Below are positions 17,633 to 46,966 of a stretch of DNA of 64,000 nucleotides, one piece after another. The notes under the pieces were generated by a model, which was not told the DNA's origin, searched no databases, and worked only from the letters and a program-made list of their open reading frames with translations. The position numbers and the translations under genes were made by a program. Source of the stretch: Acidimicrobiales bacterium (GTDB lineage Bacteria > Actinomycetota > Acidimicrobiia > Acidimicrobiales > JAVJTC01); NCBI GenBank assembly GCA_040219085.1, contig JAVJTC010000007.1, forward strand, positions 67,995 through 131,994, in the 5' to 3' direction. Every line of letters begins with the position of its first letter. Positions within the stretch are counted from its first letter, which is position 1.

Positions 17633-18886
17633 CTATTCCGGCGTGACCTTCACGATTGCGGCGATGGCCCTGTAGGCCGCCTCGGCCGGGCCGACCTCGT
17701 CGGGGCGCAGGAGGTTGGCCATGATCCGCAGTGCCCACTCCATGAGGGGCCGGGACTGCATCCCGGCCCGGGTCAACTCCGCGATGAGGCGGGGGTTGCC
17801 GATCACCTTCGCGAAGATGCGGGCGACCTTGAAGTAGAGGCCGTACTCGTCGTCGAGCCAGCGCTCGTAGCCGTTGAGGATCAGTCCGTCGTCGGCCGCG
17901 TGGGCGGCCGCGATCAACTCAGCGGCCTTGCGGCCGGTCTCGTAGGCGTAGTCGATCCCCTCGCCGTTGAACGGGTTGATGGAACCGGCGGCGTCGCCGA
18001 TCACCACCCAGTTCGGGCCGAGCTTGGGGTCCACCGATCCCGCCATCGGTAGACGACCACCGGTGGCGTCCTGCAGGGGAGCGGTCGGGTCGATCCCCCA
18101 GTGCTCCGGGACGGCGTGGGCCCACTCCTCCATGAGGTGCGAGGTGTTGACGGACTTGTAGTCCCGGAAGGTGGACAGCAGCCCGATCCCGACGTTGATG
18201 GTCCCGTCGCCGAGAGGGAAGATCCAGCCGTACCCGGGCAGGGAGTTCCCCTGGCGGTCCCGCACGTCGAGTGCGGACTCGATCCACGGGTCCGTCGAGA
18301 GTGGACTCTCGAAGTAGGTGCGGATCGCCATGCCCTGGGGCCAGCTTCGTTCCCGGGAGCAGCCGAGCGCCCGGCCGAACCGGGAGTTGGCGCCGTCCGC
18401 GATGATGACCCAGCTGGCGCGGATCTCCGACGTGGCGTCCGAGGCGACGTCACGAACCTCGGCGCCGCGCAGCAGGCCGGACTCGAGGATCGGCCGGGTC
18501 GCCTCGGTGCCCTGGAGGACCTTGGCACCCGCCGCCTGGGCGTGTTCGGCGACCATGGTGTCGAGGTCCCGACGTCGCACGACGTAGCCGTAGGACGGAT
18601 GCTCGGGATGGTCGGGCCACGGCAGCTCGAGGGTGCGGCCGTGGGCGATCGTGCGCAGACCGTCGTGGCGGTGGTGGGACCCGGCGATGCGGTCTTCGAG
18701 CCCCATGGCCGCGAGTTGGGTGACGGCACGCGGGGTCAGACCGTCACCGCAGGTCTTGTCACGCGGAAAGGTCTTCTTCTCGACGACGACGACGTCGAGT
18801 CCGGCCCGGGCCGCCCAGTACGCGGCGGCCGAACCCCCCGGACCTCCCCCTACGACGAGCAGGTCGTGTCGGGTGGCCTCGGTCAT
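17633..18886 (-). CDS. Geranylgeranyl reductase-family flavoprotein (menaquinone reductase MenJ-like)
   Basis: This 417-residue FAD enzyme has the Rossmann motif LLVVGGGPGGSAAAYWAARA at residues 9-28, the PRDKTCGDGLTPRAV segment typical of the geranylgeranyl-reductase family, and the second FAD motif NWVVIGDAAGSINPFNGEGI. In mycobacteria the related MenJ (Rv0561c) saturates one isoprene unit of menaquinone. Its place here beside cytochrome bc and complex I genes makes quinone reduction the likeliest role, but polyprenyl or archaeol-type lipid substrates cannot be excluded. The ATG at 18886 begins MTEATRHDLLVVGGG. The frame is open further upstream but runs into the cytochrome gene 23 bases away. 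Confidence 0.82.
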   Translation of the reverse strand: MTEATRHDLLVVGGGPGGSAAAYWAARAGLDVVVVEKKTFPRDKTCGDGLTPRAVTQLAAMGLEDRIAGSHHRHDGLRTIAHGRTLELPWPDHPEHPSYGYVVRRRDLDTMVAEHAQAAGAKVLQGTEATRPILESGLLRGAEVRDVASDATSEIRASWVIIADGANSRFGRALGCSRERSWPQGMAIRTYFESPLSTDPWIESALDVRDRQGNSLPGYGWIFPLGDGTINVGIGLLSTFRDYKSVNTSHLMEEWAHAVPEHWGIDPTAPLQDATGGRLPMAGSVDPKLGPNWVVIGDAAGSINPFNGEGIDYAYETGRKAAELIAAAHAADDGLILNGYERWLDDEYGLYFKVARIFAKVIGNPRLIAELTRAGMQSRPLMEWALRIMANLLRPDEVGPAEAAYRAIAAIVKVTPE

Positions 18887-18909: not shown

Positions 18910-19746
18910 TCAGCCTCCGCCGCCGGCCGTCTCGGCATCGCCGGTCGCTGCGAACGCAGGTGCCAGTGTCGCCTGGATGTCGGCCACGGTCACGTCCAGC
19001 GGCCAGTTCTCCGGCAACACGATCTCGCCGGCTTCGATCTGCTCGAGCAGGATGGTGGCCAGGGTCTCGTCGGCGGCACTCATGCCGTGCTGGACGCGCT
19101 CGTAGAGGACGACCGCGAGCAGTTCCTCGGCGGTGATGGACTCCCCGAACCCGGGCATGACGCCGAACCAGCCGCCGACGCGGCCGCGCTCGGGACTGCC
19201 GTAGGGCGTCCCGGCGCCGATGCCGTTCGTGCCCTTGACGACCCACTCGACCATCTGTGCGAGGCCCAGGCCGTCGGGGTCCGCGGGGAAGGTGATGAGG
19301 ACCTCGCCGGCGTTGAGCTGCGGGCCGGCGTTGGCCCCGGCGCCGCCGGCGCCGTGGCACTGCGCGCAGTTGGCGATGGCCTCGTAGACCTCGGCGCCCT
19401 CGCCGAGGAGGCCGACAGCGCCCTGCTCGGGTTCTTCGAGAGTCCCGAAGTAGATGAAGGCCCACAGGGGGAGGAACAACAACACGGGCATCACCCAGTA
19501 GGGGATGCGCTTGCGCTTCCTGGCGGCCTCGACCCACGGCCGGGTGGGGGCGGGCGGCTTGGGCTTGGCCGGTTCGATGTCGAAGGCCGGCAGGCTCGGC
19601 GCCGCAGGTGCCGAGGCGGCCGGGGTGGCCGCGCCGGCGGCGGCCGGAGCAGCGGCGTCGCCGCCACCGTCGTCGTCGCCACCCAGACCGAGGGCCTTGC
19701 GGCGGTCCCGCGAGCGTTGCAGCAGGTGCTCGGGTACTTCGGTCAA
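18910..19746 (-). CDS. Membrane-anchored monoheme cytochrome c
   Basis: A 278-residue protein: a short N-terminal motif TEVPEHLLQRS, an Ala/Pro/Asp-rich linker (about 20-70), a basic stretch, one transmembrane helix (about 83-101, YWVMPVLLFLPLWAFIYF) and a periplasmic class I cytochrome domain with CAQCH at 127-131 (heme c) and a distal Met in FGVMPGFG. It probably carries electrons from the bc complex encoded divergently on the other strand. I chose the TTG at 19746 because a GAGG ribosome-binding site precedes it and because the resulting N-terminus matches that of the subunit-IV-like protein at 22040 (TEVPEHLL). The open frame continues to 19914. Confidence 0.8.
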   Translation of the reverse strand: MTEVPEHLLQRSRDRRKALGLGGDDDGGGDAAAPAAAGAATPAASAPAAPSLPAFDIEPAKPKPPAPTRPWVEAARKRKRIPYWVMPVLLFLPLWAFIYFGTLEEPEQGAVGLLGEGAEVYEAIANCAQCHGAGGAGANAGPQLNAGEVLITFPADPDGLGLAQMVEWVVKGTNGIGAGTPYGSPERGRVGGWFGVMPGFGESITAEELLAVVLYERVQHGMSAADETLATILLEQIEAGEIVLPENWPLDVTVADIQATLAPAFAATGDAETAGGGG

Positions 19747-20125: not shown

Positions 20126-20728
20126 GTGGCCACTACCCGACCGATCGACCGCGCGGTCCTGATGTTCTACGGCGCCATGGCTGCGACGACCATCGGGCTG
20201 TTCGGCATCATCGCCCTGTGGACCGGCGTGAACGGTGACGTCGACAAGCCCTACGTGAACGTCGGGCTCGGCGCATCGTGGGTCATCACCGTCATCTGCA
20301 CCGTCGCCATCCTCGAGTACGCACGACGCCGTCCCGACGGGCGACCCGTCACCTGGGGGGAGGCGATGTTCGGTGCAACCTTCGCGTTCTTCGTCATGTT
20401 CTGGATCTACGGCGTGGTCCCGCACCAGTGGCTGGTCTTCGCCGACTCCGAGCTCAACTGGCGTTCGGACCGCCTGGTTGTCGGCTGGGGCCTCCCCGGT
20501 TGGTGGCCCGGCGCCGAGAACCAGGGAATCCTCGAGTGGGCGCTGCCCTTCGAGCTCACCTACCGTGTGGCCCGTGACGTCATCGCCACCGTCATCTACG
20601 GAGCCTTGCTCGTGGGACAGGTCGCGCTGCACATCGTGTGGCAGAACCGCGGCAAGGTCGCAGAGGCGGCACCGGTGCCGACCTCACGCTACGGCCGCCC
20701 GATCGTACGAGAGGGTGTGAACGCCTGA
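20126..20728 (+). CDS. Four-helix membrane protein of the bc cluster, unrecognised
   Basis: The 200-residue product has about four transmembrane segments: AVLMFYGAMAATTIGLFGII, SWVITVICTVAILEYA, MFGATFAFFVMFWIYGVV and DVIATVIYGALLVGQVAL. Several Trp and His residues lie at membrane edges (VVPHQWLVFAD, GLPGWWPGAEN). I recognise no cofactor motif. It heads the bc operon and the next gene starts one base after its stop, so it is probably a structural or assembly subunit of that complex. The GTG at 20126 is chosen because GAGGAGCGAC precedes it. The longer open frame upstream has unlikely composition. Confidence 0.65.
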   Translation: MATTRPIDRAVLMFYGAMAATTIGLFGIIALWTGVNGDVDKPYVNVGLGASWVITVICTVAILEYARRRPDGRPVTWGEAMFGATFAFFVMFWIYGVVPHQWLVFADSELNWRSDRLVVGWGLPGWWPGAENQGILEWALPFELTYRVARDVIATVIYGALLVGQVALHIVWQNRGKVAEAAPVPTSRYGRPIVREGVNA

Positions 20729-20729: not shown

Positions 20730-21146
20730 ATGGCTGTCACCGACGCCAACCCCCCGATGCCCGAGTTCCGCGGCGACTACGTGCTCGCCGAGGTCGACGC
20801 GCAGTGGCTCACCTCCGCGGTGAAGCCGAAGCAGTTCATCCACATCGACCAGTCCGAGTGCATCATGTGCGAGGGCTGCGTCGACATCTGCCCGTGGAAG
20901 TGCATCCACATGGTGTCGCCGGACGCGATCGAGTCGTCCATCGGGACCGAACAACCCGGGAGCGACCCGAGCGACCACGTGATCTTCACCATCGACGAGG
21001 ACGTGTGCACCCGGTGCGCGCTGTGTGTCGACCGCTGCCCGACCGGTGTGATCATCCTCGGCAAGCTCGGTGACGGTGGCGGAGCCGGTGACATCCACCA
21101 GCGGATGCCCTCGTACGGATACGGCTACGGCATGCGATTGGCGTGA
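20730..21146 (+). CDS. Two-[4Fe-4S] ferredoxin-like protein of the bc cluster
   Basis: A 138-residue NuoI/ferredoxin-type protein with two CxxCxxCxxxCP motifs: C44, C47, C50 and C54 in CIMCEGCVDICPWKC (with an extra C58), and C93, C96, C99 and C103 in CTRCALCVDRCP. It therefore should hold two [4Fe-4S] clusters. No transmembrane helix is seen, and the C-terminus is Tyr/Gly-rich (YGYGYGMRLA). Such a protein is not a usual cytochrome bc subunit. Its position between a membrane protein and cytochrome b suggests a ferredoxin-linked input or output for the complex, or for the EFG-less complex I encoded 21 kb downstream. That is inference only. Confidence 0.8.
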   Translation: MAVTDANPPMPEFRGDYVLAEVDAQWLTSAVKPKQFIHIDQSECIMCEGCVDICPWKCIHMVSPDAIESSIGTEQPGSDPSDHVIFTIDEDVCTRCALCVDRCPTGVIILGKLGDGGGAGDIHQRMPSYGYGYGMRLA

Positions 21147-21243: not shown

Positions 21244-22020
21244 GTGCCGAAGCTTCCCACCGGCGCCGATGTGCGTGACAAGGCAGGCGACCTGACCGAC
21301 AAGGTCCAGGCGTCGCAGGCCTGGACGTCCATCTTCCGGCCCGGCTCGATCTTCCGGAAGGGCTACACGGACAGCCCGCGGAACCGGTCGTACGTGATCA
21401 TGAACAGCGTGCTCTACCACCTTCACCCCGTGAAGGTGAAGCGCCACGCCGTGAAGGTGTCCTACACCCTGTGCCTGGGCGGACTCAGCTTCTTCCTGTT
21501 CATCTTGTTGACCGTGACGGGCATCTTCTTGATGTTCTTCTACCGTCCGACCGCGGCCGCGGCCTGGGACGACATCTCGACGCTGCAGACCTCGGTGACG
21601 TTCGGTCTGCTCGTGCGGAACATGCACAGATGGGCCGCCCACCTCATGGTGTTGACGGTGTTCCTGCACATGGCCCGCGTCTTCTACCACGGCGCCTACA
21701 AGTCCCCGCGTGAGTTCAACTGGGTCATCGGCGTCATCTTGTTGACCCTCACCCTGTTGCTCTCGTTCACCGGCTATCTCCTGCCCTGGGACCAGTTGGC
21801 GCTGTGGGCGGTGACCGTCGGTACGAACATGATGGGGTTCACCCCGGTGTTCGGTGATCAGGTCAGATTCGTGCTGCTCGGTGGTGTCGAGATCGGCACG
21901 GACACTCTCCTACGGTGGTATGTGTTGCATGTGTTGATGCTGCCGTTCGTCATCGTCATCTTCATGGCGATCCACTTCTGGCGGGTGCGTAAGGACGGAG
22001 GTATCTCCGGGCCGCTGTAG
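21244..22020 (+). CDS. Cytochrome b6-type subunit (N-terminal half of cytochrome b)
   Basis: A 258-residue four-helix cytochrome b. Heme ligands are H128 and H142 (x13 spacing, in HRWAAHLMVLTVFLH) and H229 and H244 (x14 spacing), the spacing of chloroplast/cyanobacterial b6. GYLLPWDQ and the C-terminal ISGPL also match b6. Cys77 in YTLCLGG aligns with the b6 cysteine that binds heme c(n) covalently near the Qi site, so a third heme is likely. About 45 hydrophilic N-terminal residues precede helix A. It starts with GTG after GAGAGGATC. With the separate subunit IV gene downstream this is a split, b6f-like cytochrome b rather than a fused mitochondrial type. Confidence 0.92.
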   Translation: MPKLPTGADVRDKAGDLTDKVQASQAWTSIFRPGSIFRKGYTDSPRNRSYVIMNSVLYHLHPVKVKRHAVKVSYTLCLGGLSFFLFILLTVTGIFLMFFYRPTAAAAWDDISTLQTSVTFGLLVRNMHRWAAHLMVLTVFLHMARVFYHGAYKSPREFNWVIGVILLTLTLLLSFTGYLLPWDQLALWAVTVGTNMMGFTPVFGDQVRFVLLGGVEIGTDTLLRWYVLHVLMLPFVIVIFMAIHFWRVRKDGGISGPL

Positions 22021-22039: not shown

Positions 22040-22852
22040 ATGACCGAAGTCCCCGAACACCTCCTGAAGCGGGCCGCCGAGGCCCGGGAGCGTTCCGCCG
22101 CCAAGAAAGGCGGCGGCAGCGACGGCACCCCGTCCGCGGAATCGGGCGGAGCGGAATCTGCCGGCGAAGGTGCAGCCCAGCCGGCATCGGCTGCCGGTGG
22201 TGCCGCAGCCGGGGCCGGCAGCGACAGCGCAGGGAAGATTCCCGCCCACCTGCTGGACCGCACCAAGTCGGCCAAGGACGCCCCCCCGACGGCGGTTGCC
22301 GCCGGTGGTGGTGCCGTCGCCGCAGCAGCCCCGCCTCCTCAGCCGACCGGTCCGGGTGGTCACACCCAGCGCCTGCTCACGGTCGTGAAGTCCGGGTCCA
22401 TCCAGGACGTCAAGGCCGTCCCGCAGGACAGGGTCCACACCTGGCCGCACCTGCTCGTCGTGGAGTTCGTGGCGGCCCTGTTCGTGACCGGATTCATCCT
22501 CGTCTTCTCGGTGTTCGTGAACGCGCCGCTCCTGGAACTGGCCAACTTCAACGAGACGCCCAACCCCTCCAAGGCACCGTGGTACTTCCTGGGTCTTCAG
22601 GAGCTCCTCACGATGTTCCACCCGATGGTGGCCGGCGTGATGTTGCCGGGGATGGCGCTGTTCCTGTTGATCCTGGCGCCCTACATCGACAAGAACCCCC
22701 ACCCCCAACCCGAGAAGCGCAAGTTCGCTGTGTCCGTCATGACCGTGCACCTGATGTTCTGGGCGGTGCTGGTCCTGATCGGCTCGTTCTTCCGGGGCCC
22801 CGGCTTCAACTTCGTGTTCCCGTGGGTCGAAGGCCTCTTCTTCGAGTTCTGA
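22040..22852 (+). CDS. Subunit-IV-like C-terminal half of cytochrome b with long Ala/Pro-rich N-terminus
   Basis: A 270-residue protein. Residues 136-270 form about three transmembrane helices like b6f subunit IV, with the Qo-side segment PSKAPWYFLGLQELL. The PEWY motif of most cytochromes b is APWY (179-182), so the usual Qo glutamate is missing. The first 130 residues are soluble and Ala/Gly/Pro-rich. They carry two copies of a short motif, VPEHLLKR at 4-11 and IPAHLLDR at 67-74, also found at the N-terminus of the divergent cytochrome c. The extension is unusual for this family and probably cytoplasmic. It lies 19 bases after the b6-type gene. Confidence 0.88.
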   Translation: MTEVPEHLLKRAAEARERSAAKKGGGSDGTPSAESGGAESAGEGAAQPASAAGGAAAGAGSDSAGKIPAHLLDRTKSAKDAPPTAVAAGGGAVAAAAPPPQPTGPGGHTQRLLTVVKSGSIQDVKAVPQDRVHTWPHLLVVEFVAALFVTGFILVFSVFVNAPLLELANFNETPNPSKAPWYFLGLQELLTMFHPMVAGVMLPGMALFLLILAPYIDKNPHPQPEKRKFAVSVMTVHLMFWAVLVLIGSFFRGPGFNFVFPWVEGLFFEF

Positions 22853-22902: not shown

Positions 22903-23766
22903 ATGGCCGTTCTCGCGATCGTCATCCCAATCCTGGTCGTCGCCGCGGCGATCCTGTTGTTCGCGTCGTACCGACGTCGCGACACCCGCGCTGCGACGGG
23001 TCACCTGTCGCGTGAGACGCGCTCGCGTGACACCCACGAGGTGATCGACGTCGGTGACGAGACCGACGCCCTCAGCGGCCGCGAGGTCGAGAAGGCCGCC
23101 GCTCTCGCCCGACGCGACGCCGAGAAGGACCTCGTCAGGTCCGAGGCTGCGCTCCCCGCCGAGTGGGTCGAGCCGGACCCTGAAGCGGTTGGCGTCTCGC
23201 GCCGCCAGTTCTTCAACCGCTCGATCGTCGCGTTCATGGGGCTCGGCCTCAGCGGTTTCGGTGCCGCTGTCATCGCCTTCCTGTGGCCGCCGTTCGTCAC
23301 CGGTTTCGGTGCGGACTTCAACCTCGGCGAGGTCGACGACCTCAAGGCGCAGGTGCGTGACAACAACGGCTTCCTGTACCGCCCCGAGGCGCGTGCGTGG
23401 CTCACCGAGTACCCGGTGGAGGCTCTGGAGAAGGCACGGGCCACCTACTCGGCAACCGAGTTGGTGTCCATGGAGGTCGGTCTGATCGCGCTCTTCCAGA
23501 AGTGTCCGCACCTCGGTTGCCGCGTGCCCGAGTGCGTCCCGTCGCAGTTCTTCGAGTGTCCGTGCCACGGCTCGCGCTACAACCGCGTCGGTGAGAAGCG
23601 GGCCGGTCCGGCACCGCGGGGCATGGATCGGTTCGGAACGAGTGTCACGGGCGGCAACGAGCTCGTCGTTCAGACCTCGGTGATCATCCAGGGTCCCGCC
23701 ATCGGCACGAACACCACGGGCCAGGAGCCAGAGGGCCCGTCCTGTCTGGGAGATTCGTCGCATTGA
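22903..23766 (+). CDS. Rieske iron-sulfur protein
   Basis: The 287-residue Rieske subunit has [2Fe-2S] ligands C201 and H203 in CPHLGC and C219 and H222 in CPCHGS, with C206 and C221 forming the usual disulfide. There are two hydrophobic segments: one at the extreme N-terminus (about 2-20) and one at about 107-130 directly after SRRQFF, a twin-arginine-like signal as in other Rieske proteins. Between them lies a charged 80-residue cytoplasmic-like stretch. It transfers electrons from quinol at the Qo site to the cytochrome c. The stop overlaps the TTG start of the diheme cytochrome gene. Confidence 0.92.
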   Translation: MAVLAIVIPILVVAAAILLFASYRRRDTRAATGHLSRETRSRDTHEVIDVGDETDALSGREVEKAAALARRDAEKDLVRSEAALPAEWVEPDPEAVGVSRRQFFNRSIVAFMGLGLSGFGAAVIAFLWPPFVTGFGADFNLGEVDDLKAQVRDNNGFLYRPEARAWLTEYPVEALEKARATYSATELVSMEVGLIALFQKCPHLGCRVPECVPSQFFECPCHGSRYNRVGEKRAGPAPRGMDRFGTSVTGGNELVVQTSVIIQGPAIGTNTTGQEPEGPSCLGDSSH

Positions 23767-25034
23767 TCACTGTCCTCGCTGCTTCGACGCAGCGCAACGT
23801 CGGCGCGGTCATCGCCGCTCTCGCCATCGGCGGGTTCCTCGTCTACTGGTTCTTCAACTGGTTGCAGGGGCGCGGCGAGACGGGCGCGGAGTTGGAGCTC
23901 GCGTCCAACCGCAAGCCGTACATGTCCGACGACGAGCTCGAGACGAAGAAGCTCGACGTCTCACTCGCCGCGGGCCTCGCCTGCCTGGCCGTCATCGGCG
24001 TCGCCCTGCCGCTCTACTGGCTCGGTGAACCGGGTCGTCACGAGGGTCGTGAGGAGCTGAACGACACCATCTCGGAGAGCCGGGGCGAAGAGCTCTACGC
24101 CGCCAACTGCGCCCAGTGTCACGGCACCGTCGACGGCGCCGGCGGGCTCGTCGATTTCGTGCTGGTGGACGACAACGGCCTCTTCGTCGAGAACGTCCAG
24201 TGGAAGGCGCCGTCGCTCAACACCCTCATGTACCGCTTCTCCAAGGACGAGGTCACCTACGTCCTCAACTTCGGTCGTCAGAACTCGCCGATGCCGGCGT
24301 GGGGTGCGCCCGGCGGCGGTCCCCTGACCAGCCAGCAGGTCGAAGAGGTCATCGACTACATCACTCTCGAGCAGATCCCGCTCGCGGAGCTGCGTGAGCG
24401 GGTCGAGGCCGGCCTCGACGACACCGCCCGGGTGCTGGTACTGCGTGAGAATCCCGATCTCGAAGGCGATGACGCTGCGATCGACGCAGCTGTCGCGGCA
24501 ATGCTCGCGGAGGCAGAGGTCGACCCGACCGTCCTCGGCGAACTCCTCTTCAACAACGAGGCGGATGCCGGCGTCTACGGCTGCGCCCGTTGCCACACGG
24601 CCGGTTGGAGCTACAACGCGACCGACCTCGCCGTGGAGAACCCGCTGGTCGCACCCGAGGTGCCCGGAGGCGGCGGGTTCGGCCCGAGCCTCGTCGGTGG
24701 TGCCACCCTGCGGCAGTTCGACACCGCCGAGGAACAGGCCGGCTTCATCGAGGTCGGGGTGATCGAGGGTCAGGCCTACGGCAACTTCGGTCAGGGCGAC
24801 GGAGGCGGTCAGATGCCCGCCTTCGGTCTCTGCGTCGGCGACAGGATCTCCGACGAACGCGACATCATCGTGCGCAACGACTTCTGTGAGACCGTCCTGA
24901 TCGAGGGTGAAGAGGACATGACACCTGAGGAGTTCGACGCCGCTGTGGAAGCCGCGCTGGCCGAACACGGTGGTAGCGGCACCCTCACGACCGAACAGAT
25001 CGCGGCCATCGTCGCTTACGAGCGGGGTCTCTGA
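23763..25034 (+). CDS. Membrane-bound diheme cytochrome c
   Basis: A 423-residue protein with two transmembrane segments (about 14-34 and 67-87) and two class I cytochrome domains: CAQCH at 116-120 with distal-Met candidate NSPMPAW, and CARCH at 274-278 with GGQMPAFG. About 80 residues separate the domains. It likely replaces cytochrome f/c1 as the acceptor of Rieske electrons, as diheme QcrC does in other Actinobacteria, though the layout differs from QcrC. The TTG start at 23763 overlaps the Rieske stop (TTGA) and the stop overlaps the next ATG, so all are translationally coupled. Confidence 0.88.
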   Translation: MITVLAASTQRNVGAVIAALAIGGFLVYWFFNWLQGRGETGAELELASNRKPYMSDDELETKKLDVSLAAGLACLAVIGVALPLYWLGEPGRHEGREELNDTISESRGEELYAANCAQCHGTVDGAGGLVDFVLVDDNGLFVENVQWKAPSLNTLMYRFSKDEVTYVLNFGRQNSPMPAWGAPGGGPLTSQQVEEVIDYITLEQIPLAELRERVEAGLDDTARVLVLRENPDLEGDDAAIDAAVAAMLAEAEVDPTVLGELLFNNEADAGVYGCARCHTAGWSYNATDLAVENPLVAPEVPGGGGFGPSLVGGATLRQFDTAEEQAGFIEVGVIEGQAYGNFGQGDGGGQMPAFGLCVGDRISDERDIIVRNDFCETVLIEGEEDMTPEEFDAAVEAALAEHGGSGTLTTEQIAAIVAYERGL

Positions 25035-26263
25035 TGAGCCTGGGAAACCTGATCATCGCCGGCATCGGCTGGGAGCCCGAGATCCGCGGCATGTTGACCG
25101 TCGCGCTCGCGGCGGCGGTTCTGTGTGGTTCGGTCTGGCTGCTGTTGATGACCAACATGGGCACCCGGCTGGGGGCCATGGTCGCGCTCGCCGGCTTCTT
25201 CGGCTGGATGGCCATCATGGGTCTCGTCTGGTGGGTCTACGGCATCGGTATCGCCGAGCAGGGCGACCTGCCGAGCTGGCAGTACATCGAGGCGTTCGCA
25301 GACGAGCCTGGTGCGGAGCCCGGAGGCCTCGAGGCCGCGTTCGTCGGCAACGTCGGCGATCTCCCCGACCCGAACTGTGACAACGACCCGATCTTCCCGC
25401 CCTACAAGACCGGGTGGACCTTCACCGCACCGGCCGACGGATGCCTCCCCCGTGCCATCGGTCTCCTGTTGGAGTTCCCCGAGGGCCCGGTCAAGGACCG
25501 CATCGTCGAGGAGATCGCGACTGTCGACGAGGAGGCCATCCGCGCCACCGTCGTCAGCCGCAACGATCTGATATCCGACGACGACCCCCGCAAGCTGGAC
25601 GCCGCCGGGATCGACGCGGAGGTCGCCGAACAGGTGGAACGACGCGAGGCCCGCATCGACCAGGAGACCCTGTCGGAGCTGGCGGCGGTCGGTCCCGAGG
25701 TCATCGAGTGGGCGGTCGACGAGGGTTACCTGGTGCTCGACGGTTGGAACCTTCTCGCCTCGACCGCCTCGGGTGAGGCGGTCGCCTCGGCCGAGGCCTT
25801 CATCGCCGAGGAGTCCCTCTTCGACTTCGTCACGGGGACGCTCGTGGTCGACGGTGAAGAGGTGAATGCAGCAACGTCGGACTTCATCATCGTCGACACG
25901 TTCCAGCAGGGCGGCAAGCCCAAGCGGACCGATAATTCGGTGTGGGGCCGCGTCTGGCACAAGATCGAGAACTCGGCGCGGTTCACCCACCCGACGAACT
26001 ACGCCGTCGTCCAGGCGCGCGCGGTCCTGCCCAAGGCTCAGGAGCCCGGGGCGCCGCCGCCACCCGACGAGGTGGACCGCGACTCGCCCACGATCTCCAT
26101 CGTGATGGAGCGGGATCTCGGTAACCGGCGCCTGCTGCCGGGCCTGGTCACCATCGGATCGCTGTTGATATTCCTCGCCCTGTCACTCAACCTGCACATC
26201 CGCGACCTCGCGTTGTGGCGAAAGCAGGAGGAGTTCGAGGCGAACAACGGCGCGACGCCCTAG
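25034..26263 (+). CDS. Membrane protein with large soluble domain, unrecognised, in bc cluster
   Basis: The 409-residue protein has two N-terminal transmembrane segments (about 18-40 and 45-68), a soluble region of about 290 residues rich in Glu, Asp and Ala, and one C-terminal transmembrane helix ([19 protein letters not shown]). Two cysteines (NCDNDP and DGCLPRA) lie at the start of the soluble part, with no heme or Fe-S motif. I recognise no family. It is the last gene of the bc operon, with a TGATG overlap to the diheme cytochrome, and its stop overlaps the -10 box of nuoA. An accessory or assembly subunit of the bc or oxidase supercomplex is a guess. Confidence 0.65.
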
Positions 26264-26274
26264 GGTCCAAGGCG
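26261..26274 (+). promoter_or_regulatory. Candidate leaderless promoter of the first nuo operon
   Basis: TAGGGT (26261-26266) overlaps the TAG stop of the preceding gene and lies 8 nt before the ATG of nuoA at 26275. There is no ribosome-binding site. Confidence 0.4.
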
Positions 26275-26733
26275 ATGCTCGGCCAATACCTCCCGGTCCT
26301 CGCCATGATCATCCTGGCGATCCTGTTCGCCGCGCTCAGCTTCGGTGCGTCGAAGCTGTTGGCGCCGCGTCGGCCGACCTCCGCCAAGGAGGCGCCCTAC
26401 GAGTGCGGCATCGTCCCGGCGCGCGAGGTCCCCGAGCGCTTCCCGGTGAAGTTCTTCCTCGTGGCCATGATCTTCATCGTCTTCGACATCGAGATCATCT
26501 TCCTGTACCCGTACGCCATGGTCTTCAGCGGGCTCGGCCTGTTCGGCCTCGTGGCGATCCTGATATTCGCCTTCGCGGTGTTCGAGTCCTTCGTGTACCT
26601 GATCTCCAACGGCGCCCTCGACTGGGGCCCCATTCGGGCTGCCCGGCCCGGTGTGAGTGCGCAGCGCACGGCTGCATCGACGGTTCGTCGCGTCGGCACC
26701 GACGGCCGCGGCGCGCAGACCGAGGCGGCCTGA
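26275..26733 (+). CDS. nuoA: NADH-quinone oxidoreductase subunit A (complex I, set 1)
   Basis: A 152-residue three-helix membrane subunit. [11 protein letters not shown] is the conserved cytoplasmic loop with its redox-switch cysteine, and [13 protein letters not shown] is the acidic second helix lining the quinone-side proton path. A 35-residue basic, Ala-rich C-terminal tail is extra relative to most NuoA proteins. It opens a 14-gene operon in standard A-N order. Its stop overlaps the nuoB start. Confidence 0.92.
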
Positions 26734-27341
26734 TGGTCAAGGTCCCGCTTCTCGGCGAGAGCCAGAACATCCTCGACGAGGGTCTCGAAGGCCTCGAGCA
26801 CAACTTCCTCACCGCGAAGGTCGAGGACCTCGTCCAATGGTCGAGGGCGCGCAGCGTCTGGCCCGCCACCTTCGGCCTGGCGTGCTGTGCGATCGAGATG
26901 ATGGCGGCCGGCGGGGCCCACTACGACCTCGCCCGCTACGGCATGGAGGTCTTCCGGGCGTCACCGCGTCAGGCGGACCTCATGATCGTCGCGGGACGGG
27001 TGAGTCAGAAGATGGCCCCCATCCTGCGCCAGATCTACGACCAGATGGTCGAGCCCAAGTGGGTCATCTCGATGGGTGTGTGCGCCTCGTCGGGTGGCAT
27101 GTTCAACAACTACGCAATCGTCCAGGGCGTCGACCAGATCGTCCCGGTCGACGTCTACGCACCCGGCTGTCCCCCCGGACCACAGACGCTCATGCATGCG
27201 ATCCTGACGCTGCACGCCCAGATCGAAAACGGTGAACTCGCTCGTCGACGCGACGAGACGGGAAGCGGTGCCGGCATCACGGTCGAGCAGCGCGACGGCC
27301 AGACGGCCACCTCGACGATCGTCCCTGTCCACGCGCGATGA
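26733..27341 (+). CDS. nuoB: Complex I subunit B (set 1)
   Basis: This 202-residue peripheral-arm subunit holds the terminal [4Fe-4S] cluster N2, with cysteines in [20 protein letters not shown] and YAPGCPPGP. It passes electrons to menaquinone at the NuoB/NuoD interface. The C-terminal 30 residues ([12 protein letters not shown] and on) are a hydrophilic tail. The ATG overlaps the nuoA stop, and its own stop overlaps the nuoC start. Confidence 0.95.
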
Positions 27342-27910
27342 CCGACGACTCGAGCCCCGACGAGGCACCAGAAGGCCCTGACGCGCCTCCACCCGACGCG
27401 GTGGGCGGGTCCGCCGAAGGCGGCGAGGACCAGCCCACCCGTCACGGTGTGCCGGTGGTGGAGTCGCCGGGCCAGACGGTGCTGCACCCCGACCGCGAGT
27501 CCTACATCGGCGTGGTCGAAGCTCTGCGCGACGAGGGCTTCACGGTCTGCGTCGACGTCTGTGGGGTCGACTACCTGCACCACCCGGGCCGCGCCGACCT
27601 TCCCGCCGGCGTGATCGGCGAACGCTTCGAGGTGGTCGTGGGCCTCATCTGCCATGACCCGCCGCAGCGGGTGCGCCTGCGGGTCCAGGTACCCGCCGAG
27701 GACCCCACCATCGCGTCACTGTTCGACATCCATCCCGGTACGGAGGCGCTCGAGCGCGAGACCTACGACATGTTCGGCATCGTCTTCGATGCCCACCCCG
27801 ACATGACCCGCATCCTGATGCCCGAGGACTGGGAGGGCCACCCGCTGCGCAAGGACTTCTCCGTCGGCGCCGTCCCCGTCCAGTTCAAGGGCGCCCCGCC
27901 GCCGCGTTGA
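27338..27910 (+). CDS. nuoC: Complex I subunit C (set 1)
   Basis: The 190-residue 30 kDa-type subunit carries the signature [17 protein letters not shown] and GHPLRKDF. It lacks any fused NuoD domain. The first 45 residues are acidic and Pro-rich, without family similarity. It begins inside the nuoB stop (ATGA) and is followed by 31 bases containing a GAGGAGG-type ribosome-binding site before nuoD. Confidence 0.93.
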
Positions 27911-27941
27911 GCGGCCCGACCGACGAGGAGGCGATGACCAC

Positions 27942-29207
27942 ATGGCGGTGACAGACGAGACCCCCCGTAGCCGGGTGCGTGATCGCGACGACAGTCCGGT
28001 ACTGCGGTTGTCCGAAGCGGCTGCGCAGGAGTTCGTGCCATCCGACGGCCGGATGATCATGAACATGGGGCCCCAGCACCCCAGCACGCACGGCGTGCTG
28101 CGACTCATGCTCGAACTCGAGGGCGAAACGGTCCTGCGCTCGAAGCCGGTCATCGGCTACCTCCACACCGGCATGGAGAAGACCGGCGAGACGCTGAGCT
28201 ACATCCAGGGTGCGACCAACGTCACGCGCATGGACTACGCCTCGCCGTTGTTCAACGAGTTGGCGTTCTCGCTCGCCACCGAGGCGCTACTCGGCATCGA
28301 GGTTCCGCCGCGCGCCGTGTGGATCCGCATGCTGTTGACCGAACTCAACCGGATGACATCGCACCTGCTGTTCCAGGCCACCAACGGCATGGATCTGGGC
28401 GCGGTGTCGATGATGATCTACGGGTGGCGCGAGCGAGAGCCGGGCCTGCAGCTTCTCGAACGGATCACCGGCCTGCGGATGAACCACAACTTCATCCGTC
28501 CCGGCGGTGTCGCTGCGGATCTCCCCGACGGGTGGGAGGACGACGTCGCCGCGTACCTCGACGCCGTCGAGCCCCGCCTCGACGAGTACGACGTGCTGCT
28601 CACCGGCCAGCCGATCTACCGCGAGCGGCTCCAGGGCGTCGGCGCCATCTCCGCGGAGGACTGCCTTGCGCTCGGTGTCACCGGTCCGATCCTGCGTTCC
28701 ACCGGGTACGCCTGGGACCTGCGCCGCGACATGCCCTACCTCGCCTACCCGGAGCTGGACTTCGACGTCATCGTCGGCAGCTACGGCGACTGCTTCGACC
28801 GCTACGCGATCCGCCTCAACGAGATCCGCGAGTCCATCCACATCATCCGCCAGATCATCGAGGCGATGCCGTCAGGTGACTATCGGATCCAGGACAAGAA
28901 GGTGACGCCGCCGCCGCGGGCCCGCATCGACGAGTCGATGGAGGCCCTGATCCACCACTTCAAGATCTTCACGGAGGGGTTCAAGGTCCCCGCCGGCGAG
29001 GTCTACGTCGCGGTGGAATCGCCCCGGGGAGAGCTCGGGTGCTACATCGTGTCCGATGGCACGTCGAAGCCGTACCGCATGCACATCCGTGGACCCAGCT
29101 TCGTGAACCTGCAGACGCTGCCCCACATGATGGAGAACGCGCTGGTCGCGGACGCCGTGGCCATCATCTCGTCGGTGGATCCGATCATGGGTGAGGTGGA
29201 CCGCTGA
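27942..29207 (+). CDS. nuoD: Complex I subunit D (set 1)
   Basis: A 421-residue 49 kDa-type subunit forming the quinone site with NuoB. NMGPQHPSTHGVLRLMLELE and the C-terminal VDPIMGEVDR are typical. At the position equivalent to the dimethylated arginine of mitochondrial NDUFS2 (HRGTEK) this protein has Thr76 (HTGMEK), unlike the second NuoD in the window, where it is Arg. The first 38 residues are a hydrophilic extension. The nuoE start overlaps its stop (TGATG). Confidence 0.95.
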   Translation: MAVTDETPRSRVRDRDDSPVLRLSEAAAQEFVPSDGRMIMNMGPQHPSTHGVLRLMLELEGETVLRSKPVIGYLHTGMEKTGETLSYIQGATNVTRMDYASPLFNELAFSLATEALLGIEVPPRAVWIRMLLTELNRMTSHLLFQATNGMDLGAVSMMIYGWREREPGLQLLERITGLRMNHNFIRPGGVAADLPDGWEDDVAAYLDAVEPRLDEYDVLLTGQPIYRERLQGVGAISAEDCLALGVTGPILRSTGYAWDLRRDMPYLAYPELDFDVIVGSYGDCFDRYAIRLNEIRESIHIIRQIIEAMPSGDYRIQDKKVTPPPRARIDESMEALIHHFKIFTEGFKVPAGEVYVAVESPRGELGCYIVSDGTSKPYRMHIRGPSFVNLQTLPHMMENALVADAVAIISSVDPIMGEVDR

Positions 29208-29818
29208 TGGCGCGTCTGTCCGACGAGAACCTCGTCGTCGCGCGTGAGATCATCTCGCGCTATCCGCGGCCCAAGTCGGCGCTGATCCCCCTTCTGCACC
29301 TCGCCCAGGAACAGGACGGCTGGGTGACCGATGAGGCGATGGCCCACATCGCCGAGCTCGTCGGTGTCACCTCCGCCGAGGTCCTCGGTACCTGCTCGTT
29401 CTATGAGATGTTCAAGCGGCACCCGGTGGGTCGCTACCAGGTCAACATCTGTCACGGCATCGCCTGCCACCTGTTGGGTGCCGACGATCTCATCCACCAC
29501 GCCGAGCAGTCGCTCGGGGTGCGCGAAGGCGGCACCACCCCCGACGGCGCCATCACGATGGAAGGCGTCGAGTGCATCGCAGCGTGCACCGAGGCACCGT
29601 GCCTACAGGTGAACTACCGCTACGAGTACCGGGTGACCAACGACGACTTCGACGGCCTCGTCGACGATCTCCGTGAGGGGCGTCGGCCCGAGATTCCCCC
29701 GCACGGGACACTGGCCAGGGTGCGCCAGCACATCCCGGCCGCGTCGGCAGCGGGCAACGCCGATCCCGACTCCGGCTCCGAGCCCGCATGGCTCGCCTCG
29801 CCCGGAGGTGACGAATGA
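29207..29818 (+). CDS. nuoE: Complex I subunit E (set 1)
   Basis: The 203-residue 24 kDa-type subunit has a thioredoxin-like [2Fe-2S] (N1a) domain with ligands in NICHGIACHLLGA and VECIAACTEAPC. With NuoF it forms the NADH-input module. The last 35 residues are a Ser/Asp/Gly-rich tail. It overlaps nuoD before it and nuoF after it. Confidence 0.94.
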   Translation: MARLSDENLVVAREIISRYPRPKSALIPLLHLAQEQDGWVTDEAMAHIAELVGVTSAEVLGTCSFYEMFKRHPVGRYQVNICHGIACHLLGADDLIHHAEQSLGVREGGTTPDGAITMEGVECIAACTEAPCLQVNYRYEYRVTNDDFDGLVDDLREGRRPEIPPHGTLARVRQHIPAASAAGNADPDSGSEPAWLASPGGDE

Positions 29819-31152
29819 CCGTCACCGACGCATCACCGATCATCACGACCCGCTTCGACGTCGCCGACGGCCACACGATCGCCGGATACGAGCGCACCGG
29901 TGGCTACCAGGGCCTGCGCAGGGCTCTCACCATGGCGCCGGGTGAGGTGCACGAGGAGGTCAAGACCGCGAGCCTGCTCGGGCGCGGCGGTGCCGGCTTC
30001 CCGGCCGGCATCAAGTGGGGCTTCTGCCCCCCGGGTGTGTGGCCGCGCTACCTCGTCGTCAACGGTGACGAGTCCGAGCCCGGCACCTACAAGGACCGCC
30101 TCCTCATGGAGCGCGACCCCCACCAGCTCATCGAGGGTTGCCTGATCGCGTGTTACGCGGTCGGCCTGTCCCAGTGCTTCCTCTACATCCGCGGCGAGAT
30201 GGCTGACGCCCAGGAACGGGTGGCGGCCGCGCTCAACGAGGCGTACGAGGCCGGCTACGTCGGGAAGAACATCCTCGGCTCGGATCTCTCGGTCGACATC
30301 GTCCTTCACTGGGGTGCCGGGGCCTACATCGTCGGTGAGGAGACCGCACTCATCGAGAGCCTCGAGGGCAACCGCGGTATGCCGCGGCTCAAGCCACCGT
30401 TCTTCCCCGCGGCCATCGGCGTGTACGGAAAGCCGACGATCGTCAACAACGTCGAGACCCTGTCCAACCTGCCGTGGATCGTCTCCAACGGCGGCGACGC
30501 CTTCGCGGACATCGGCGCGGAGAACTCCAAGGGGACCCGCGTCTTCGCCGTCTCGGGCCACGTGAAGAACCCCGGCGTGTTCGAGGTGGAGTTCGGCGTC
30601 ACGACGTTCCGCGACATCATCTTCGACGACCGCTACGCCGGCGGCCTCCTCGAGGGCCGGTCACTCAAGGCCTTCATCCCCGGTGGCGCGTCGGCCATCT
30701 GGTTCTTCGAGGAACATCTGGACCTGCCGCTCGAGAAGACCGCAGTCGACAAGGCCGGGTCCATGCTCGGCTCGGGCGCCATCGTCGTGATGGACGACAC
30801 GACGGACATGGTCAGGGCCTGCCACAACATCGTGCGCTTCTTCGCCCGGGAGTCCTGCGGCAAGTGCACGCCGTGCCGTGAGGGCACCTCGTGGCTCGAA
30901 CGGATCCTCGCGCGGGTCCTCGCCGGCCAGGCCCGGCCCGCCGATCTTCGGCTCCTGCGCGACGTGTGTGACAACATCTCGCCCGGCATGGAGTGGCCCC
31001 CGAAGATGACGACCATCTGCCCGCTCGGGCCGTCGGCGGTCTCGCCGATCATCTCGGTGCTGGATCGCTTCGCGGACGAGTTCGACACCTACGTCACGCT
31101 TTCCGACCGCGTGACCATTCCGGTCACCGCGGCTGCCGGAGGCACCCCGTGA
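29815..31152 (+). CDS. nuoF: Complex I subunit F, NADH-binding (set 1)
   Basis: A 445-residue flavoprotein that oxidises NADH through FMN. GRGGAGFPAGIKWGF is the NADH/FMN glycine-rich motif, GAYIVGEETALIESLEG is the flavin site, and SCGKCTPCREGT plus a later Cys (TTICPLGPSA) bind the N3 [4Fe-4S] cluster. Its presence makes set 1 a genuine NADH-dependent complex, in contrast to set 2. The nuoG GTG overlaps its stop. Confidence 0.95.
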   Translation: MTVTDASPIITTRFDVADGHTIAGYERTGGYQGLRRALTMAPGEVHEEVKTASLLGRGGAGFPAGIKWGFCPPGVWPRYLVVNGDESEPGTYKDRLLMERDPHQLIEGCLIACYAVGLSQCFLYIRGEMADAQERVAAALNEAYEAGYVGKNILGSDLSVDIVLHWGAGAYIVGEETALIESLEGNRGMPRLKPPFFPAAIGVYGKPTIVNNVETLSNLPWIVSNGGDAFADIGAENSKGTRVFAVSGHVKNPGVFEVEFGVTTFRDIIFDDRYAGGLLEGRSLKAFIPGGASAIWFFEEHLDLPLEKTAVDKAGSMLGSGAIVVMDDTTDMVRACHNIVRFFARESCGKCTPCREGTSWLERILARVLAGQARPADLRLLRDVCDNISPGMEWPPKMTTICPLGPSAVSPIISVLDRFADEFDTYVTLSDRVTIPVTAAAGGTP

Positions 31153-33671
31153 CCGACGTCGCCGACGAGAAGGCCCAGAAGACGACGGTGACGATCACCG
31201 TCGACGGCAACGAGTTCGAGGCCGAGCCGGGCCGGATGCTCATCGACGCCTGCGAGGATGCCGGCGTCTACATCCCGCGCTTCTGCTACCACCCGCGGAT
31301 GCGACCTGTCGGCATGTGTCGCATGTGCATCGTCGACGTCGACACCGGGCGCGGCGCCGCCCTGCAGCCCTCGTGCATGCTCAAGGTGGCCGACGGCATG
31401 GTCGTCGACACCGAGTCCGATCGCACGAAGAAGGCCCAGGACGGGGTCCTCGAGTTCCTGCTCGTCAACCACCCGTTGGACTGTCCCGTCTGCGACAAGG
31501 GCGGCGAGTGTCCGCTGCAGGACCAGACGATGTCGCACGGCCCCGGCGAGAGTCGTTTCGTCGAGGAGAAGCGCCACTTCGAGAAGCCCATCCCGATCTC
31601 GGGGCTGGTGGACCTGGACCGGGAACGCTGCATCCTGTGTGACCGTTGCACCCGCTTCGCCAAGGAGGTGGTCGGCGATCCGCTGATCCACTTCATCGAC
31701 CGCGGCAACCAGACCCAGGTCAACACGTTCCCCGACGAGCCGTTCTCCAGCTACTTCAGCGGCAACACCGTCCAGATCTGCCCGGTCGGTGCCCTCACCG
31801 CGAGCAGCTACCGCTTCAAGGCCCGCCCCTGGGATCTCGACGAGGTGCCGGGCACCTTCCCCAACCCGATGGGCGACCGCGTCACCATCCAGGCGTCGCG
31901 CAACCGTGTGCTGCGCTATCTCGGCGTCGATTCCGACGCCGTCAACTGGAGCTGGCTCACCGATCGCGACCGCTTCTCGTTCACGGCCATCCACAGCGAG
32001 CAGCGCCTCACGGAGCCGCTCGTCCGCAGCGCCGAGGGCGACCTCGTGGCCGCGTCGTGGTCGACGGCGTTGACCACGGCCACCGACGCCATCCGCGCCG
32101 CTCTCGACACAGGGGGCCCGACCTCGGTCGGCGTGATCGGCGGGGCCCGCCTGAGTACCGAGGACCAGTACGCCTGGGCCCGCCTCGCCAAGGGTGTCAT
32201 CGGTACCGACAACGTCGATGCCCAACTCGCCGACGGGCTCCCCGTGGACCTCGTGCTCGGCGCGCCGCGGGCCACCATCGCCGACGCCTGTGAGCCCGGG
32301 GGAACGACGCTGCTGTTGTCGGCGGACCCCAAGGAGGAACTCGGGACGCTGTTCATCAGGCTGCGCCACGCCGCCACCGAAGACCGCGCCACCCTGGTGG
32401 AGCTCACGCCGACAGCGACGGGCCTATCCGATGTCGCCGCCCATTCGCTGCGTGTGCGCCCCGGCGATCTCGCCGAGGTGGCCCGCCGCCTCGTAGGTGC
32501 CGGTGGTACCGGTGATCTCGGACCGACCGGTGACGACGCCATCGCATCGGCGCGGGCGGCACTCGGCGACGGCCCGGTCACGCTGGTCGTCGGGCGGGCA
32601 TCCCTGGCGGAATCACCGGCGGTGATCGCCGACGCCGTCCGCGTCCTGCTCGACGGACTCGACGGCTCGCGGGTCCTTCCCGTCATGCGCCGTGGCAACG
32701 TGTTCGGCGCGCTGGACACGGGCCTCGTTCCCGGTCACCTACCCGGCCGGACCACTCTCGCCGCGGCCGGCGACTGGTACCGCGAAGCCTGGGGTCAGGT
32801 TCCCGCCGAGGTCGGCCTCGACACCACGGGCATGCTGCGTGCGGCCGCGGCCGGTGACCTCGACGTGCTCGTGCTCCTCGGCGCCGACCCACTCGTCGAC
32901 CACCCTGACCGCGAACTCGTGCGCTCGGCCCTCGCCGGCGTCGGCACGGTCATCGCGCTCGACCTGTTCGCAACCACCACCGTGGACCGCCACGCGGACA
33001 TCGTGTTCCCCACAGCCGGTTTCGCGGAGATCGACGGAACCCACACCAACCTGGAGGGGCGTCTCTCGCCTCTGGGTCGCAAGGTCACCCCACCGGGGAC
33101 CGCCCGCAGCGACTGGATGATCGCAGCCGAACTCGCCCACCGCCTGGGCGGCGATCTCGGGTTGGACTCGGTGGACGCCGTGTGGGACGAGATCGAGGCG
33201 CTGTCACCGCTGCACGCCGGCGCCACCCGCTCCATCGTGGCCGAGTCCGCCGACGGTGTCGTCGTTCCGATCGCCGACGCGAACCGCGACGGCCGGCCGC
33301 CGATGGTCACCGGTCTCGCTCCTGTCGATCCCGTCGCCGCGGTGCGCGCCGACGCCTATGCGCTGCGTCTCGTCGTGGACCGTCCTCTCTACGATGCCGG
33401 CACGACTGTCTCCCACGCGCCCGCCCTGGCCGCCCTGACGGTGCCCGCCCGGGCGCGTCTGAACCCCGCCGACCGCGAGCGCCTCGGCGTGAGCGGCGAT
33501 GCCGAGGTCACCGTGTCCACCGGGCGGGGATCCATCCGGATCGCGACGGTTGCAGATCACCGTGTCCCGCCGGGTTCGATCGCCATCGCGTTCAACTGTC
33601 CGGGTGCCGACGCCGGTGAACTCATCGACGTGGACGCCCCCTTCGCCGAGGCCCGGGTGCAGACGCGGTGA
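31149..33671 (+). CDS. nuoG: Complex I subunit G (set 1)
   Basis: The 840-residue 75 kDa-type subunit has an N-terminal [2Fe-2S] N1b (C46, C57, C60, C76), then N5 with H108 and C112, C115, C121 (HPLDCPVCDKGGEC), then N4 with C161, C164, C167 and C211. The rest is a molybdopterin-oxidoreductase-like fold without cofactor. The extra N7 cluster motif seen in some bacteria is not obvious. The GTG at 31149 overlaps the nuoF stop. The long upstream open frame lies within nuoF and is not used. Confidence 0.95.
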   Translation: MTDVADEKAQKTTVTITVDGNEFEAEPGRMLIDACEDAGVYIPRFCYHPRMRPVGMCRMCIVDVDTGRGAALQPSCMLKVADGMVVDTESDRTKKAQDGVLEFLLVNHPLDCPVCDKGGECPLQDQTMSHGPGESRFVEEKRHFEKPIPISGLVDLDRERCILCDRCTRFAKEVVGDPLIHFIDRGNQTQVNTFPDEPFSSYFSGNTVQICPVGALTASSYRFKARPWDLDEVPGTFPNPMGDRVTIQASRNRVLRYLGVDSDAVNWSWLTDRDRFSFTAIHSEQRLTEPLVRSAEGDLVAASWSTALTTATDAIRAALDTGGPTSVGVIGGARLSTEDQYAWARLAKGVIGTDNVDAQLADGLPVDLVLGAPRATIADACEPGGTTLLLSADPKEELGTLFIRLRHAATEDRATLVELTPTATGLSDVAAHSLRVRPGDLAEVARRLVGAGGTGDLGPTGDDAIASARAALGDGPVTLVVGRASLAESPAVIADAVRVLLDGLDGSRVLPVMRRGNVFGALDTGLVPGHLPGRTTLAAAGDWYREAWGQVPAEVGLDTTGMLRAAAAGDLDVLVLLGADPLVDHPDRELVRSALAGVGTVIALDLFATTTVDRHADIVFPTAGFAEIDGTHTNLEGRLSPLGRKVTPPGTARSDWMIAAELAHRLGGDLGLDSVDAVWDEIEALSPLHAGATRSIVAESADGVVVPIADANRDGRPPMVTGLAPVDPVAAVRADAYALRLVVDRPLYDAGTTVSHAPALAALTVPARARLNPADRERLGVSGDAEVTVSTGRGSIRIATVADHRVPPGSIAIAFNCPGADAGELIDVDAPFAEARVQTR

Positions 33672-34879: not shown

Positions 34880-35502
34880 TGGGACTCTTCGAAGGTTTCG
34901 GCATCACCTTCAACAAGATGTTCGAGGACCGGGTCACCACCAAGTACCCGACCGACAAGCGCCCCAAGCCCGAACGGCTGCATGGCCGCCACGTCCTCAA
35001 CCGGTACGAGGACGGGATGGAGAAGTGCATCGGCTGCGAGTTGTGCGCCGGTGTGTGTCCCGCCCGCTGCATCTACGTGCGCGGCGCCGACAACCCACCC
35101 GACGACCCCGTGTCGCCCGGCGAGCGCTACGGCTTCGTCTACGAGATCAACTACCTGCGCTGCATCCACTGCGACCTGTGCGTGGAGGCCTGTCCCACCG
35201 AGGCCATCACCGAGACGAAGCTGTTCGAGTTCTCGTTCACCAACCGCGAAGACGCCATCTACACCCGCGACGAACTCCTCGTCGACGACGAGGGCCGTCC
35301 GAAGCATCTGCCGTGGGAGGACTGGCGGCCCGGTGAGGACGAGCACACCTCGGCGTGGATGCGGGCCACCTCACCGTCGGGATCGGCCGCCTACGAGGGC
35401 CGGGTCGCCTGGTCCGGTGAGCTCGGCTACGGCGTGCGCGCCCCCGAGCGGGGCCAGTCTGCACCGGCGGCCGACGCCGCGTCCGAGGAGGACGACGCCT
35501 GA
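34879..35502 (+). CDS. nuoI: Complex I subunit I (set 1)
   Basis: The 207-residue TYKY-type subunit has clusters N6a and N6b in CIGCELCAGVCPARC and CIHCDLCVEACP, which carry electrons from NuoG to NuoB. The N-terminal amphipathic segment lies on the membrane. A 50-residue hydrophilic C-terminal extension ends in an acidic tail. TGATG overlaps occur at both ends. Confidence 0.94.
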   Translation: MGLFEGFGITFNKMFEDRVTTKYPTDKRPKPERLHGRHVLNRYEDGMEKCIGCELCAGVCPARCIYVRGADNPPDDPVSPGERYGFVYEINYLRCIHCDLCVEACPTEAITETKLFEFSFTNREDAIYTRDELLVDDEGRPKHLPWEDWRPGEDEHTSAWMRATSPSGSAAYEGRVAWSGELGYGVRAPERGQSAPAADAASEEDDA

Positions 35503-36281: not shown

Positions 36282-36586
36282 TGGAGGTCACGACCACCTG
36301 GTACCTGATCCTCGGCGCCGTCGTCTTCTCCATCGGCGCGGTGGGACTGCTCGTCAGGCGCAACCCGCTGGTGATGTTCATGTGCGTCGAGTTGATGCTG
36401 AATGCGGTCAACCTGACCTTCGTCGCGTTCGGGCGGGACCTGGGCGACCTGGGGGGTCAGGCATCGGTGTTCTTCGTTCTCGTGGTGGCGGCGACAGAGG
36501 TGGTCGTCGGCCTGGCGATCGTCGTCGCGATCATGCGACGGCGCCCCGGTGCGACAGCCGACGACGTGTCGCTGATGAGGGGCTGA
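36281..36586 (+). CDS. nuoK: Complex I subunit K (set 1)
   Basis: A 101-residue three-helix antiporter-related subunit. The two membrane glutamates that carry protons are in [16 protein letters not shown] and [17 protein letters not shown]. Starts with ATG overlapping the nuoJ stop. nuoL follows after one base. Confidence 0.95.
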
Positions 36587-36587
36587 C

Positions 36588-38473
<1,886 letters not shown>

Positions 38474-38474
<1 letters not shown>

Positions 38475-42169: not shown

Positions 42170-42182
42170 ACGGAGCCCGCTG

Positions 42183-45568: not shown

Positions 45569-45578
45569 GGAGCATCTG

Positions 45579-46136: not shown

Positions 46137-46139
46137 GCC

Positions 46140-46658: not shown

Positions 46659-46662
46659 CACC

Positions 46663-46962: not shown

Positions 46963-46966
46963 TCGC

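Follow-up and report, generated by a model that had tools for sequence, protein, structure and literature searches.

A 2[4Fe-4S] protein encoded beside cytochrome b6 in Actinomycetota and its candidate role as a cytoplasmic electron port

What does a protein with two predicted [4Fe-4S] clusters do inside a cytochrome bc operon, and with which complex does it work? The question is raised by a small gene, here called FD, in the window, a 64,000-nucleotide stretch of DNA from an Acidimicrobiales bacterium that was analysed as a whole. An earlier note on this DNA had suggested that the protein could connect the bc complex with a ferredoxin-level donor, or else work for a complex I lacking the EFG module.

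The FD gene and its operon

The operon and the residues discussed below lie at the following positions of the window:

20126..20728, plus strand: TM4, a membrane protein of ∼200 aa with a GTG start, an AGGAG-like site upstream and four long predicted helices
20730..21146, plus strand: FD, a 2[4Fe-4S] protein of 138 aa with a net charge of -11 and without a signal peptide
20859..20891, plus strand: first cluster motif of FD, C44xxC47xxC50xxxC54P, invariant in 113 homologues, then W56 and C58
21006..21038, plus strand: second cluster motif of FD, C93xxC96xxC99xxxC103P, invariant in 113 homologues
21244..22020, plus strand: cytochrome b6-type subunit (Pfam PF00033; cytochrome b6 structures come out best in the PDB), with four heme-b His and an N-terminal segment that is basic and conserved
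21418..21420, plus strand: His59 of cytochrome b6, 18 residues ahead of Cys77 and invariant in both operon types, that of the window and a fused type described below
21472..21474, plus strand: Cys77 of cytochrome b6, aligned with b6f Cys35 (covalent heme ci/cn ligand)
22040..22852, plus strand: subunit IV (Pfam PF00032) with a long N-terminal extension, the Qo motif KAPWYFLGL and the Glu of WPHxxxxE
22903..23766, plus strand: Rieske [2Fe-2S] protein (Pfam PF00355)
23763..25034, plus strand: membrane-anchored diheme c-type cytochrome with two CxxCH motifs
25034..26263, plus strand: M, a membrane protein without a family, the last gene of the operon, conserved

FD starts 1 bp past the end of TM4 and ends 97 bp ahead of the cytochrome b6 gene. 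Since inspection showed neither a signal peptide nor a hydrophobic segment, the protein is expected to be cytoplasmic, and the earlier description of a soluble protein between a membrane subunit and cytochrome b stands. Its translation contains two CxxCxxCxxxCP motifs, with Cys 44/47/50/54 and 93/96/99/103 exactly where they had been noted, Pfam Fer4 families match it far above cut-off, and a GC3 of 0.92 against a GC2 of 0.46 supports it as coding. The source genome (3.77 Mb) holds one copy of the gene. All eight Cys are 100% conserved across 113 homologues with identities down to ∼35%, which excludes chance, and the Pro after each motif is likewise invariant. A ninth Cys, C58, directly behind the first motif (CPWKC), is kept in 98% of these homologues and W56 in 88%, the latter being invariant in the stand-alone sequences examined; as judged from the alignment, these two residues are marks of the family.

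Structure prediction of FD from 28 sequences (pLDDT 71) gave a 2[4Fe-4S] ferredoxin fold near FwdF, NdhI and NuoI, and a fold search returned generic 2[4Fe-4S] proteins. FD thus shares its fold with the complex I subunits NuoI/NdhI and with the polyferredoxins FwdF/MvhB, and it also has the NuoI-like CPxxC behind the first motif. Among NCBIfam models, those of NuoI and of the Rnf/polyferredoxin types come nearest, and with each of them FD falls far short of the cut-off (39.3 bits against 113.05 for NuoI). Unlike NuoI, FD falls below all NuoI cut-offs and is tied to cytochrome b rather than to complex I.

The two membrane proteins at either end of the operon are less easily placed. The predicted structure of TM4 (44 sequences, pLDDT 84) consists of four long helices, for which a fold search against the PDB gave no match and searches of Pfam and NCBIfam gave no known family. 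We considered TM4 as a b-type heme protein and rejected this, as its His is not conserved beyond Acidimicrobiia and W, P, D and Q alone are conserved. M matched no family, is conserved across classes, and has a long insert in the window copy relative to those of other classes.

The remaining genes encode the parts of a split complex, with a four-helix cytochrome b, a separate subunit IV and a Rieske protein, all of which are shared with cytochrome b6f and the Firmicutes b6c complex, as is the heme-ci cysteine. The window operon differs from both in the FD gene, since b6f and b6c have no n-side FeS subunit, and in the Qo motif, which is KAPWY in place of PEWY. The c-type cytochrome carries a CBB3-type domain, and no cytochrome f was found in the operon; the complex is therefore b6-like and not strictly b6f. 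Downstream of the cytochrome operon lies a complete nuo operon (26215-41694), and beside that a second complex I operon without the NuoEFG module (42024-52552).

Linkage to cytochrome b and loss of FD

We surveyed genomes for the order membrane protein, ferredoxin, b6 and subunit IV, as the earlier note had suggested. FD matches were found in 124 of the 148 genomes of the class (E ≤ 1e-10), including genomes of ∼1 Mb, and in 96 of 296 genomes sampled across the phylum (E ≤ 1e-12). A strong cytochrome b match (E below about 1e-110) was likewise present in 96 of the same 296 genomes, 91 of which had FD. Where FD occurred without a full cytochrome b match, the assembly was fragmentary at that place (G207, G303, G320 and G361) or only the fused paralogue was present (G235), and genomes of the same order without FD had only a distant cytochrome b (E about 1e-25 to 1e-29). 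Among 209 loci examined by HMM, the order TM4-FD-cytochrome b-subunit IV-Rieske-cytochrome c-M was seen wherever the contig was long enough, except in FD-less and fused types. Cytochrome b adjoins FD in every locus holding both, and FD was never seen apart from cytochrome b in intact contigs. The few odd orders that were checked, with FD ahead of TM4 or an extra Rieske gene between FD and cytochrome b, proved to be artefacts of long out-of-frame ORFs.

This essentially invariant order spans several classes of Actinomycetota (about 200 loci), streamlined ∼1 Mb genomes included. The assignment of FD to the bc complex is borne out by this conservation, and the possibility that the gene would not be conserved beside cytochrome b in relatives did not materialize. 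Conservation of the operon is evidence of a functional linkage between FD and cytochrome b, not of a physical one. Named carriers include Salsipaludibacter albus AS10, Nitriliruptorales, Euzebyaceae, Egibacteraceae, Candidatus Microthrix and many Acidimicrobiia MAGs. The best 80 loci in a profile scan of named genomes are apparently all from Actinomycetota, counting one that is mislabelled: it bears the submitter label Acidobacteria and has a counterpart with the same match position in G157, which belongs to the phylum of the window. A literature search, most subscription reviews being outside its scope, returned no paper on the FD operon, and an earlier description is possible.

Five genomes that are 93–97% complete (G201, G256, G266, G286 and G305) lack FD, and in these TM4 is directly followed by cytochrome b, the gap being too small for an FD gene. 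A profile search for FD elsewhere in the five gave best scores of at most ∼43 bits, from NuoI-like or other proteins, where true FD scores 173–191 bits. In a quick cytochrome b tree, with several forks weakly supported, the FD-less genomes are nested among FD-bearing lineages at three places, and parsimony counts three changes. Because the losses are nested in this way, operons of this type probably had FD from the start and can carry out the core reaction without it, and the approximately three clean losses with the rest of the operon kept indicate a peripheral module rather than a core subunit. FD is acidic (-11) and the N-terminus of cytochrome b is basic (+8); since the N-terminal residues are the same in the FD-less genomes, they are not retained for contact with FD alone. 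A natural comparator from the same phylum is locus L128 (G273), a simpler Rieske-cytochrome b-subunit IV cluster in which FD and TM4 were not detected.

Heme-ci residues and a fused paralogous operon

At twelve Actinomycetota loci (for example L118 and L124) we found a second cytochrome b, about 51–57% identical to the first. Upstream of it is an ORF of 600–800 aa that joins a GltD/PRK12771-like NAD(P)H:FAD oxidoreductase to a C-terminal 2[4Fe-4S] domain, and this C-terminal domain matches the FD profile. In the two examples scanned, the oxidoreductase part scored 445–473 bits against a GltD/PRK12771-like cut-off of 516. In eleven of the loci a two-helix protein of 60–85 aa lies directly upstream of the fused ORF; one of the fused-operon loci, L117, ends at a contig end. 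The small protein aligned with the C-terminal half of TM4 in hhalign (probability 96.9%, E 1.4e-10), where control comparisons gave 0.1% with cytochrome b and 5.6% with the last membrane protein, and the two share the core pattern W..A - P - D - Q of the TM4 C-terminal helix pair. Given this homology, both operons have the same layout: a membrane protein, a 2[4Fe-4S] domain with or without an NAD(P)H module, cytochrome b, subunit IV, Rieske and cytochrome c. The last membrane gene, M, was not detected in the fused operons. By its gene structure, the fused operon would have electrons pass the FD domain on their way between cytochrome b and NAD(P)H/FAD. The source genome of the window also encodes a GltD-like protein (36% identity), which is probably a glutamate synthase.

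The two operon types agree in some residues of the cytochrome and differ in others. The four heme-b His are present in 160/160 sequences, or in 159/160 with a single gap, and are kept in both types, as is the Qo motif KAPWY. Cys35 of b6f is the covalent ligand of heme ci, and the equivalent position is Cys in 160/160 operons with stand-alone FD; in the fused type it is Arg or Tyr in 12/12, so that the heme-ci Cys is found in 0/12. In nearly all stand-alone types subunit IV contains WPHxxxxE, with a Glu that we take to lie at or next to Phe40 of plant subunit IV, the residue facing heme ci; in the fused type the motif reads WPHxxxRH, with His for Glu. In the alignment, then, the stand-alone-type cytochrome b carries a signature of heme ci. 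Ligation of heme ci by Glu has been described for other organisms (PMC12954380).

Among the closest known systems are the Rieske/cytochrome b complexes of anammox bacteria, Kuste4569-4574 and Kustd1480-1485 of Kuenenia stuttgartiensis, which have a split b6-like cytochrome b, a subunit IV and a Rieske protein as here (PMC12954380). These complexes have been proposed to reduce NAD(P)+, with FeS clusters leading electrons from hemes bN/cN to the nucleotide (PMC12954380). Their n-side [4Fe-4S] clusters form a path to the cytoplasm, of which FD, with its two motifs, its lack of a signal peptide and its gene beside cytochrome b, is a candidate counterpart. The NAD(P) oxidoreductase of the anammox complexes carries FAD and some four FeS clusters, where the window has two clusters in a stand-alone protein; an NAD(P)H/FAD oxidoreductase subunit is absent from its operon, and the fusion occurs only in the paralogous operons, which resemble the anammox complexes. 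The cytochromes also differ, being hexa- and octaheme cytochromes c in anammox and a diheme cytochrome c, accompanied by two extra membrane proteins, in the window. His59 of the window cytochrome b is a candidate equivalent of the His predicted for the anammox interface heme (Kuste4571 His43). The statement in the earlier note that no complex of this composition has been characterised therefore needs correction, as the anammox complexes are close relatives in kind (PMC12954380) and the phylum itself has a fused version. The fused NAD(P)H oxidoreductase Rieske/cytochrome b operon of Actinomycetota seems to merit a study of its own.

An electron port and its alternatives

We consider it moderately probable that FD and TM4 belong to a menaquinol:cytochrome c oxidoreductase of the b6 type and there form an electron port that opens to the cytoplasm and leads to the n-side cofactors of cytochrome b. 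FD would sit on the complex as a peripheral subunit of the cytoplasmic side, paired with TM4, and its two [4Fe-4S] clusters would move electrons between a soluble low-potential carrier (a ferredoxin or flavoprotein) and heme ci/Qi, such that the complex would trade electrons with the cytoplasm on top of its own Q cycle. An n-side port is the best reading because the fused domain lies between NAD(P)H/FAD and cytochrome b, and because an FeS path has been proposed for anammox. Binding of FD to the complex, its contact with heme ci, its redox partner and the direction of flow are what we infer from the genes, and the previously suggested link of the bc complex to a low-potential donor is plausible. 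In the window type, FD probably makes its n-side contact at heme ci; since the fused paralogue lacks the heme-ci residues, heme ci is not the general contact point.

The organisms with FD are probably aerobic heterotrophs for the most part. Because of this, and because the heme-ci residues are kept and the NAD(P) module is absent, our guess leans slightly toward entry, from a reduced carrier to menaquinone, over exit, in which menaquinol bifurcation would yield a reduced carrier. Tentatively, FD may inject cytoplasmic electrons via heme ci into menaquinone at Qi, acting as a built-in ferredoxin subunit. For b6f it has been proposed, without being settled, that ferredoxin or FNR reduces plastoquinone at Qi via heme ci (PMC5683061, PMC9720722). 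If the injection reading were true, the operon would encode a bacterial complex dedicated to the ferredoxin-to-heme-ci route that has long been proposed for b6f cyclic electron flow, and this route would be widespread in Actinomycetota, ∼1 Mb streamlined genomes included. As a donor tied to FD, 2-oxoacid:ferredoxin oxidoreductase (KOR) was considered and rejected: its alpha subunit is missing in FD-bearing genomes such as G009, G023, G031, G039 and G261 and present in FD-less ones, and as the two do not track, FD is not tied to a KOR donor.

Electron exit is a special case of the electron-port reading in which the flow is reversed: the complex would bifurcate menaquinol, sending one electron by way of Rieske and cytochrome c to oxygen and the other through hemes b to FD, to supply biosynthesis with reduced ferredoxin or NAD(P)H. 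Such a route has been proposed for the anammox complexes, with their n-side NAD(P) oxidoreductase and high-potential Rieske (PMC12954380), and the fused GltD-FD paralogue occurs in the window's own phylum. We nevertheless find exit doubtful for the window operon, where heme ci is kept with a Glu near the ligand position, the usual quinone-reducing arrangement, where the reductase is neither fused nor adjacent, and whose aerobic heterotrophic carriers have cheaper sources of NADPH. A role outside catalytic electron flow, with FD as an assembly subunit or a redox- or oxygen-sensing regulatory subunit, would account for a small, surface-type protein that was lost several times from an otherwise intact operon; the invariant ligands of two ferredoxin-type clusters and the fusion to a flavin oxidoreductase suit electron transfer better, and make this role improbable.

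Two further readings look to neighboring genes. A gene of the MenJ/geranylgeranyl reductase (GGR) family lies divergently at 17633-18886 on the minus strand, 1.8 kb from FD, and its product probably acts in menaquinone tailoring. A ferredoxin donates electrons to an archaeal GGR, and a GGR gene is near FD in many Acidimicrobiia as well as in the window. We think it very unlikely, however, that FD is the electron donor to this enzyme, since GGR is found in only 23/84 long FD loci overall whereas cytochrome b adjoins FD in every locus with both genes, and since other classes keep FD and cytochrome b together without a nearby GGR. The earlier suggestion that FD serves the EFG-less complex I would have it stand in for the module that the second nuo operon lacks. 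The nuo operon that starts at 26.2 kb and the EFG-less one at about 43–52.5 kb speak for this reading, but it is not supported, and we think it very unlikely too. Most lineages have no nuo gene near FD (NuoA was found in 27/84 long loci and not in 57/84) and FD stays by cytochrome b all the same, its NuoI score is 39 against a cut-off of 113, and each nuo operon of the window has a NuoI of its own.

On the electron-port reading, this is a complex III of wide occurrence that probably has an additional port for electrons on its cytoplasmic side, and the phylum offers a natural series in which the working of such a port can be tested: a fusion to an NAD(P)H oxidoreductase, a stand-alone FD and the loss of FD. 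It bears on whether heme ci takes electrons from ferredoxin, and on whether Rieske/cytochrome b complexes can swap electrons with NAD(P) or ferredoxin, as proposed for anammox. Since cultured relatives such as Salsipaludibacter albus AS10 exist, the port is testable.

Two minor observations concern neighboring subunits and annotation. An N-terminal segment, TEVPEHLLxR, is common to subunit IV (22040-22300) and the divergent c-type cytochrome (19500-19746, minus strand); it recurs in subunit IV as IPAHLLDR, and proteins from relatives, L037 among them, have it as well. The two proteins may use the shared segment to dock to each other. The window cytochrome b also scores above the cut-off of the NCBIfam equivalog model ExtP (306.6 against 290), a component of a selenite/tellurite reduction operon. 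The ExtQ score stays far below its cut-off (50.7 < 150) and the operon differs; the ExtP match is probably a naming artefact, and annotation pipelines may give this complex III cytochrome b a wrong name across the phylum.
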